Positions 6,588 through 9,090 of a stretch of 64,000 bases of DNA are shown here, piece by piece. Below the pieces are notes generated by a model that saw only the letters and a list, made by a program, of their open reading frames with translations, did not search any database and was not told the origin of the DNA. Within the stretch, counting starts at the first letter, position 1. The number at the start of each line of letters is the position of its first letter. A program made the position numbers and the translations under genes. Source of the DNA: Rufibacter sp. DG15C. Lineage in GTDB: Bacteria > Bacteroidota > Bacteroidia > Cytophagales > Hymenobacteraceae. The stretch covers positions 2,790,001 through 2,854,000 of the forward strand of contig NZ_CP010776.1 of NCBI RefSeq assembly GCF_001577755.1. Direction: 5' to 3'.

Positions 6588-7556
6588 ATGGACAGGCGTA
6601 TGATAAGATGTTTCTATTTAAAAGACGGCGAGCTGACCTGGGAGAAAAACCCAGAGACGTTTGACGCGCCAGAAGACAAAGGTCGCATCATCTGGGTAGA
6701 CCTGCAGGCGCCCTCAGACCATGAGCAACGCCGGGTAGAAGAAGCCTTCGGGATTGAGTTGTTCACCCAGCAAGAGGCCGCCGAGATTGAAAGCTCCTCA
6801 CGTTATTTTGAGGACGAGGGCGGGTTCTTTGAAGCCAACACGGCCTTTGTCATGCACCAGGACGGCTCCTACATCACGCGCCAAGTTTCCTTTATTCTAC
6901 AAAGAGACATCCTTTTCACCATGCGCCGTACGGACCTCAAGTCCTTCGGGGAGACGGTGCGCAAGATGAAGACCTTCAAAGGCACCACCATTAGGGCTAT
7001 TCAGGTCTGGCTGTTGCTGTTAGAGACCCAGATTGACAACGACGCCGACTTTATTGAGCACCTCACCCGCACTACCAACGTGATCAGTAAGCGCCTGGTA
7101 AAAGAGCAGTCTATTGAGGAAGAGGTCTTGATCAGGATCACCGAACTTCAGGAAAACACCATCCTCATCCGGGAGAGCATCGTGGATAAGCAACGGTTGG
7201 TTTCTTCCTTGCTCAGATCTTTCGCTGTTGATGAGCCTGAGAAGGAGCGTTTGCGCATTGTCATCAAAGACATTAACTCGCTTTTGCAACATACCCAGTT
7301 CAGCTTTGAGCGTCTGGAGTACTTGCAGAACACCTTCCTGGGTTTGGTGAACATTGAGCAGAACAAGGTCATCAAAATCTTCACGGTAGTAACCGTAGTG
7401 TTCATGCCGCCTACGCTCATTGCCAGCATCTACGGCATGAACTTTAAATTCATGCCCGAACTCAATTGGGTAGGAGGTTACCCGTTTGCCCTACTATTGA
7501 TGTTGCTGGCTTCCATGGGCTTCTTGTGGTATTTCAGGAGGAAGAAGTGGTTGTAG
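6588..7556 (+). CDS. corA: CorA family magnesium/divalent cation channel
   Basis: A 322-residue inner-membrane Mg2+ (possibly Co2+/Ni2+) channel of the CorA family, acting as a pentamer. The large N-terminal cytosolic part is followed by a long helical region (about residues 170-260) and two C-terminal transmembrane helices. The signature YGMN selectivity motif lies at about residues 282-285, between the helices. The length matches the family. The protein ends with the expected basic tail (WYFRRKKWL). It starts at the ATG following a purine-rich stretch (GGAGAGGAGAAGG) about 20 nt upstream. It converges on the VLRF1-like gene with a 61-bp gap that contains no PAL element. Confidence 0.9.
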   Translation: MDRRMIRCFYLKDGELTWEKNPETFDAPEDKGRIIWVDLQAPSDHEQRRVEEAFGIELFTQQEAAEIESSSRYFEDEGGFFEANTAFVMHQDGSYITRQVSFILQRDILFTMRRTDLKSFGETVRKMKTFKGTTIRAIQVWLLLLETQIDNDADFIEHLTRTTNVISKRLVKEQSIEEEVLIRITELQENTILIRESIVDKQRLVSSLLRSFAVDEPEKERLRIVIKDINSLLQHTQFSFERLEYLQNTFLGLVNIEQNKVIKIFTVVTVVFMPPTLIASIYGMNFKFMPELNWVGGYPFALLLMLLASMGFLWYFRRKKWL

Positions 7557-7588: not shown

Positions 7589-7632
7589 GAGGAGCTGGAG
7601 CGGTCAAGGAAAATGGCCTAGTCCAGCTCCTC
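7589..7632. terminator. Possible hairpin at a convergent gene junction
   Basis: An 11-bp perfect inverted repeat (GAGGAGCTGGA at 7589-7599, TCCAGCTCCTC at 7622-7632) whose right arm overlaps the 3' end of the minus-strand gene. There is no clear T-run, so termination is only a possibility. Confidence 0.35.
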
Positions 7633-8373
7633 TTCTTCGTTTAGGTCTTCGGGGTCTTCTATATTCTCAAAATCTTCTTCTTCCTCGTCCTCTTCTTGTC
7701 CGTTTACGCCGCGCAGTAGTTTTTTCACCAATTCTTCCTGGGCAGGTTCATAGATGAGTTCGCCTTTCTGCAGGAAGCGGTTGATGTTGAGCATGACCTC
7801 ATAGATGGGCGTGTGCACGTGCTTCGGGATTTTGAAGATGCGCTCATCGCGTTTATCAAAAGGCGTTTTTACGTGTGAGTCGAAGAGGTAGGGCACCAAA
7901 ATCTTGGAGACGCTCATGCAAATGCGGTGCACCTGGTGGTCTTCAAAATACTCCTGCAAGCGTTCGTTGATGTTCTCAAAAAACTCCACCGTCTCGCCCA
8001 ATCGTACCCGTGACCCCGCTCTGCTCTTGCCCTTGGTCTTGAGGTGTTTAATCTGGCTCTTTCCCTGCTTTTTGCGCACCATATATGCCCTGAAGACCTT
8101 GTGATTCAAGTTAAAACCGTCTTCAAAATAACCCATGGCGCAACTCCCACTCTGCACCAGCAGAATGACATAATGCACGCTCTCAGCTTCTTCAATTAAT
8201 GCATGATTTGGCGGCGGAAGGGTGATGGGCAACCGGAAGAACGCTAATTCCTTCTCTTGCGCATCTACCAGCACCATGCGGTGTTTGCCATGGTCATACA
8301 CAGACCTAACCGCCGATTGGTGAATGTTCTGAAGAATTTGGGCAGAGGCGTCCCTGTTGAAGAAGCGGTTCAT
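7618..8373 (-). CDS. VLRF1-like (Vms1/ANKZF1-type) peptidyl-tRNA release factor homologue
   Basis: A 251-residue protein that I assign to the eRF1-related VLRF1 family, whose eukaryotic members Vms1/ANKZF1 release nascent chains from stalled 60S subunits. The diagnostic block is residues 91-107, HKVFRAYMVRKKQGKSQ, matching the family pattern of an aromatic/basic strand followed by a G-x-x-Q loop; Gln107 is the equivalent of the catalytic Gln. A second conserved block follows at 116-125 (KSRAGSRVRL) and then a helix (ETVEFFENINERL). The C-terminal 25 or so residues are nearly all Glu/Asp, and I see no zinc finger or ankyrin part. Ribosome rescue in this bacterium is inferred from the family. 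A PAL element separates it from the next minus-strand gene. Confidence 0.68.
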   Translation of the reverse strand: MNRFFNRDASAQILQNIHQSAVRSVYDHGKHRMVLVDAQEKELAFFRLPITLPPPNHALIEEAESVHYVILLVQSGSCAMGYFEDGFNLNHKVFRAYMVRKKQGKSQIKHLKTKGKSRAGSRVRLGETVEFFENINERLQEYFEDHQVHRICMSVSKILVPYLFDSHVKTPFDKRDERIFKIPKHVHTPIYEVMLNINRFLQKGELIYEPAQEELVKKLLRGVNGQEEDEEEEDFENIEDPEDLNEEEELD

Positions 8374-8436: not shown

Positions 8437-9090
8437 TTATCTAGGGTTGACGGTGCGCTTGATTTTGTCCCCTTGCGGGTGGGCCGCATGCGTGCAAGTC
8501 GCCGGGTCTGATTGGTGTAATGTCTTGCCTTCGCGGGTCATGTGGGAGCAAGGCCATGGATCAGTACCATGCGCAGAATGTTTGCAGGGCACTATAAAGT
8601 AATTTGACTCTTCGTCTAATTGCGCTATTCTATACTCTAAATGCTTAATGCGTTCCAGTTTGGCTAGGTTGGTCAATTCTTCTGTTTCACTTTTCTTTAG
8701 ATAATCCAACATGGCTAGCAAGATGGTCTTGTCCTGAGAATAGAGCGTCTCAATAGCGTATTTATCAGCGCCCACTTCCATGATGGTGTTCACTTGGGTC
8801 ATGTGTGCCGTAGTATCTTTTTTGAGTTTTCCTTTGCTTATATGCCCCCGTAAAAAATGACCGTACTCATGAGCTTGGTGGTAGGCTGTCACAAACGGTC
8901 CCACTTGTAATGCAAGGTTTGGGTTGTATTCAATCACTACGGCTTTGAGGCTGTCACTGTAGGTAACCTTGGCAATATCCTGTAAGTTGACGTTTGGGAC
9001 CAAAGGGGCAGGCGGCATCCATTTTTGAGCGAACGCGCTTGAGCTTAGGACTAATAATATGAGTAGAGCGTAAAAAACTTTTAGGGGCAT
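8437..9090 (-). CDS. Secreted zinc metallopeptidase-like protein (HEYGH)
   Basis: A 217-residue exported protein with a clear signal peptide (residues 1-21, ending AFAQ). The sequence HEYGHFLRGH at residues 74-83 contains the HExxH zinc-binding motif, and EVGAD at 105-109 sits where gluzincins supply the third ligand in an ExxAD-type helix, as in M48-like peptidases. The rest of the fold is short, so this could be a minimal peptidase or a degenerate relative. The C-terminal 50 or so residues are rich in His and Cys (PCKHSAHG, CSHMTREGK, CTHAAHP), suggesting extra metal binding. The substrate is unknown. It sits alone between two PAL elements, with 311 bp of upstream DNA. Confidence 0.6.
   Translation of the reverse strand: MPLKVFYALLILLVLSSSAFAQKWMPPAPLVPNVNLQDIAKVTYSDSLKAVVIEYNPNLALQVGPFVTAYHQAHEYGHFLRGHISKGKLKKDTTAHMTQVNTIMEVGADKYAIETLYSQDKTILLAMLDYLKKSETEELTNLAKLERIKHLEYRIAQLDEESNYFIVPCKHSAHGTDPWPCSHMTREGKTLHQSDPATCTHAAHPQGDKIKRTVNPR

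Follow-up and report, generated by a model that had tools for sequence, protein, structure and literature searches.

Vms1/ANKZF1 is central to eukaryotic ribosome quality control, and a small gene in the Rufibacter DNA analysed here (a stretch of 64,000 nucleotides, hereafter the window) raises the question of whether bacteria of this lineage encode a relative that frees nascent chains from stalled ribosomes. An earlier note on the same DNA had proposed a Vms1/ANKZF1-like release factor candidate, pointing to two motif blocks, HKVFRAYMVRKKQGKSQ and KSRAGSRVRL, as the core of VLRF1 release factors. The candidate is supported by the sequence profile, the predicted fold and the residues of the catalytic loop, and we infer release activity.

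Gene layout and family assignment

The 251-residue open reading frame of the earlier note is real and occupies positions 7618–8373 on the minus strand (no strand had been given), with its ATG at 8373 and its stop codon at 7618–7620; the plus strand over the same interval has several stops. The open reading frame list, a match to the Pfam family PF18826 and its presence as a single copy in the source genome, one contig of 4.14 Mb, define it as a bVLRF1 gene. The encoded protein starts with a small alpha/beta extension (residues 1–60; 8194–8373, minus strand) predicted with high confidence (pLDDT 95–98 over residues 1–50). The VLRF1 catalytic domain (residues 68–203; 7765–8172, minus strand) has an eRF1 middle-domain/RNase H-like fold, as judged from the Pfam match and from an AlphaFold model whose best match is Vms1. 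Within this domain lie the catalytic loop and the basic stretch that follows it (residues 91–125, HKVFRAYMVRKKQGKSQIKHLKTKGKSRAGSRVRL; 7999–8103, minus strand), which are invariant or nearly so in an alignment of 55 homologues. This segment contains both motif blocks, HKVFRAYMVRKKQGKSQ at residues 91–107 and KSRAGSRVRL at residues 116–125. The protein ends in a tail (residues 226–251; 7621–7698, minus strand) that is predicted to be mostly disordered (pLDDT about 51–55) and is as highly acidic as had been noticed, with Asp or Glu at 18 of its 26 positions.

Pfam found bVLRF1 as the only domain of the protein; neither a decoding or Pelota-type domain nor a Rei1-type zinc finger, ankyrin repeats or VIM was detected. 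PF18826 (bVLRF1, Bacteroidetes VLRF1 release factor) covers residues 68–203 with E = 5e-29 and 101.6 bits against a cut-off of 27, which excludes a chance match of the two blocks and bears out the proposed VLRF1 membership. The same family was matched by all 55 members of the homologue alignment, two of which also match baeRF_family10 weakly, and the source genome has no match to acVLRF1 (PF18859). When a profile built from 11 relatives was compared with every PDB chain, it retrieved only yeast Vms1 (three distinct sequences, E about 3e-6). The alignment is ungapped through the catalytic segment and equates R100, K102, G104, S106 and Q107 with Vms1 R288, K290, G292, S294 and Q295. The GxuQ motif, with a tiny residue before the glutamine, is thus present as G104-K-S-Q107; this loop is part of the definition of the bVLRF-1 family, which was predicted in 2019 by Burroughs and Aravind and whose bacterial members were described as stand-alone (PMC6514570).

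Collectively, these results support assigning the gene product to the VLRF1 branch within the eRF1 superfamily; among solved structures, Vms1 is its closest relative. The family itself is already a published prediction (PMC6514570) and is represented in Pfam, such that the gene is a further member and largely known. Our literature search found no experiment or biochemical data on any bacterial VLRF1 member.

The catalytic loop and the proposed release step

An AlphaFold2 model built with the 55-sequence alignment reached a pLDDT of 85 and a pTM of 0.81, with low pLDDT at loop residues 101–120 and in the acidic tail; residues 101–120 are predicted to be mobile, as expected of a GGQ-type loop. 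Comparison of the model with Vms1, which had been suggested as a check, placed it inside the eRF1/VLRF1 fold and closest to Vms1. In Foldseek, Vms1 chains ranked ahead of all others (E 9e-6 to 5e-5) and were followed by eRF1 and Balon; VIA-align gave a Z of 11.4 against Vms1 6r86 (rmsd 3.2, 134 aligned). The VIA-align alignment to Vms1 6r84 has its end points at model residues 1 and 209, a range that takes in the N-terminal extension, which is thus possibly shared with eukaryotic VLRF-1. With Z scores of about 11 for eRF1 (nearly tied with Vms1), about 8–10 for Pelota and about 9–10 for Balon, the fold alone cannot tell release factors and hibernation factors apart. The fold fixes the superfamily, and the choice of the VLRF1 branch follows from the sequence profiles and the conserved loop.

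Because the fold is common to Balon and Pelota as well (Z 8–10), and because two alignment members weakly match baeRF_family10, the protein might be a non-catalytic A-site factor that acts in hibernation or ribosome splitting. We regard such a role as very improbable, since the catalytic glutamine is invariant in bVLRF1 and missing from Balon and Dom34, a Balon-type NCBIfam model scores only 12.5 bits on the 251-residue protein against a cut-off of 330, Pfam finds no Pelota-type domain and bVLRF1 has no regular genomic partner.

Loop conservation points towards catalysis. Among the 55 aligned sequences, which are 39–67% identical to the Rufibacter protein, the invariant positions are H91, R95, Y97, R100, K102, G104, Q107, G115–S117 and G120–R122. 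The glutamine had been numbered correctly in the earlier note; its codon (8053–8055, minus strand) encodes the equivalent of Vms1 Gln295 in the ungapped HMMER alignment with the Vms1 PDB chains, and the residue is kept in all homologues inspected. The loop reads GKSQ in 78 of 91 distinct homologues, GTSQ in 7 and GVSQ in 4, the remainder having GKAQ or GMSQ, and in more divergent homologues, drawn from other families of the order, it is GKAQ, GFSQ, GRSQ or GKFQ, always with the glutamine. Such constancy at 39–67% overall identity indicates a catalytic, not merely structural, role. In Vms1, the substitutions R288A, G292A (and G292A/G293A) and Q295L and deletion of S294 abolish or impair function and release (PMC5989216).

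We therefore consider it probable that bVLRF1 is a relative of Vms1/ANKZF1 that frees nascent chains from stalled ribosomes or split 50S subunits independently of a stop codon. In the mechanism that we envisage, the protein would enter the A site of a stalled ribosome, or of a split 50S subunit that still carries peptidyl-tRNA, and the mobile GKSQ loop with Q107 would be pushed into the peptidyl-transferase centre. The nascent chain would then be freed without the reading of a stop codon, presumably by ester hydrolysis or by cleavage at the CCA end.

These two chemistries mirror divergent descriptions of the eukaryotic proteins, as that of Vms1 has been described as ester hydrolysis (PMC5989216, PMC6514570) and recent papers present Vms1/ANKZF1 as an endonuclease that acts at the CCA end (PMC12868832, PMC11317155). 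A variant of the preferred reading that differs in chemistry only, in which bVLRF1 cuts the tRNA near its CCA end and the tRNA is then mended, is a tentative alternative. Besides the recent papers, the loop residues common to Vms1 and bVLRF1 are compatible with it, as is a PhnP/RNase Z-related MBL hydrolase encoded directly upstream of rqcH in the source genome. However, the MBL–rqcH pair occurs in 5 of 10 genomes without bVLRF1 and is missing from 4 of 8 with it, and Burroughs and Aravind favour a hydrolase over a nuclease (PMC6514570).

Distribution and relation to other rescue factors

bVLRF1 was found in 31 of the 59 nearest genomes, in 75 of 291 genomes sampled from the order (about a quarter, covering 33 of 115 genera) and in 5 of 296 genomes sampled from the phylum, all five of which belong to the same order as the source genome. 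Its distribution is patchy even inside the family, with no bVLRF1 among the genomes listed for genera g5 and g6. Its absence from most genomes of the phylum implies a dispensable role. Across 81 loci there was no regularly conserved neighbour or operon, and the gene thus looks standalone; the commonest neighbour cluster, present at 24 of these loci, is confined to Hymenobacteraceae-type genomes. A mobile-element origin was rejected, with no match in plasmid records, phage records or viral contigs.

In the window, the upstream gene on the same strand (8437–9090) encodes a secreted-looking product with a HEYGH metalloprotease-like motif and without a confident family match, and its adjacency to bVLRF1 is not conserved. 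A CorA-type Mg2+/Co2+ transporter gene (6588–7556, plus strand) is convergent with bVLRF1, and a gene of the CorA cluster lies close to bVLRF1 in 8 of 80 related loci.

The source genome also carries tmRNA, ArfB, RqcH, Pth and MutS2, which makes bVLRF1 an addition to these factors and not a replacement; its role is probably that of a backup alongside tmRNA, ArfB, RqcH and Pth. A role as a substitute for ArfB was rejected, as both genes are present in the source genome and in most related genomes.

The NFACT/RqcH protein of the source genome (520 amino acids, with NFACT_N and NFACT-R matches) raises an alternative, in which bVLRF1 serves specifically to terminate the alanine tailing driven by RqcH in bacterial RQC, as a direct counterpart of Vms1 acting with Rqc2. 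Co-occurrence is compatible with such a role. All 31 bVLRF1 genomes among the 59 relatives encode NFACT/RqcH and the five NFACT-less genomes all lack bVLRF1 (Fisher p = 0.02, uncorrected for kinship), and in the order sample NFACT was found in 68 of 75 bVLRF1 genomes against 60 expected (p = 0.007, or 0.07 in high-quality genomes). The association thus exceeds expectation in raw counts, yet it is loose: the effect is weak, and both kinship and reduced genomes confound it.

Strict coupling of the two genes was rejected on the basis of four genomes from a single genus (G435, G494, G563 and G568; loci L157–L160, genus g208, family f19), all near-complete at 99%, which encode bVLRF1 and lack both NFACT_N and NFACT-R. 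Their loops are intact (GKSQ, GRSQ, GVSQ and GKSQ, respectively). Two further genomes of that genus, G448 and G549, have both bVLRF1 and RqcH, and the absence of RqcH from the other four therefore reads as loss rather than poor detection. In addition, most RqcH genomes lack bVLRF1, the gene has no genomic linkage to rqcH, and release in Bacillus subtilis RQC has been assigned to Pth (PMC11633108, PMC11317155), which is present in the source genome. These observations argue against the strict model and make a dedicated terminator unlikely; that bVLRF1 does not strictly depend on RqcH is a useful new constraint on the family.

Next to rqcH in the source genome (L141:1770–3332), we observed a gene for an MBL-fold hydrolase of the PRK02113/PhnP-related group (L141:1006–1767; G000:C1:3987505–3988266) that ends 2 bases before rqcH and is more distantly related to RNase Z. 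Of 18 other genomes of the order that were examined, with or without bVLRF1, 9 have the MBL gene no more than about 1 kb upstream of rqcH; the hydrolase is possibly an RQC accessory enzyme. Coupling of bVLRF1 to the hydrolase was not supported, the MBL–rqcH pair being equally common without bVLRF1.

The acidic tail and comparison with known systems

The C-terminal tail varies in length and sequence among homologues and is not family-defining, since several relatives have only a short tail or none. Many homologues end in an acidic stretch and a tryptophan. A Trp falls within the last three residues of 56 of 105 distinct tails, compared with 9 (maximum 19) when the last 30 residues were shuffled, a figure that is not a probability as the sequences are related. 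Such tails occur at all 21 loci from L090 to L110 and at the distant loci L001, L166, L174 and L176; the Rufibacter tail is acidic but has no terminal Trp. The Trp-ended acidic tail is a small new feature of the family that spans several families of bacteria and looks like a possible ancestral short docking motif. A more speculative and rather doubtful extension of the release-factor reading is that bVLRF1 is an RqcH-independent rescue factor beside ArfA/RF2, ArfB and Pth whose acidic, Trp-ended tail docks to a ribosomal or quality-control partner, and which was later taken into RQC by eukaryotes as Vms1. Vms1/ANKZF1 has been proposed to descend from the bacterial bVLRF1 family (PMC6514570).

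If a bacterial member is active, especially without RqcH, the release step would be separable from C-terminal tailing, and bVLRF1 would add one rescue factor to the bacterial list. Rufibacter, Pontibacter and Adhaeribacter are cultured genera, which makes the activity testable.

Compared with the bVLRF-1 family as published (PF18826, PMC6514570), the Rufibacter protein shows no essential difference, having the same profile, the same GxuQ loop and the same form of a small stand-alone Bacteroidetes protein, although its tail, unlike that of many relatives, is long and acidic with no Trp at its end. With Vms1/ANKZF1 (eVLRF-1; PDB 5whg, 6r84, 6r86 and 6r87) it shares the catalytic domain fold and the equivalence of R288, G292 and Q295 to R100, G104 and Q107, but it is bacterial, has no zinc finger, ankyrin repeats or VIM, and its partnership with RqcH is not strict. 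The Balon/baeRF-1 families have the eRF1-type middle-domain fold in common with bVLRF1, whereas Balon also has decoding and EF-Tu-binding domains in a three-domain aeRF1 architecture and lacks a GGQ motif (PMC10901736). Finally, ArfB (NF006718) is, like bVLRF1 with its putative activity, a single-component bacterial rescue release factor with a catalytic glutamine, but its fold is unrelated and it is encoded by a separate gene in the same genome.
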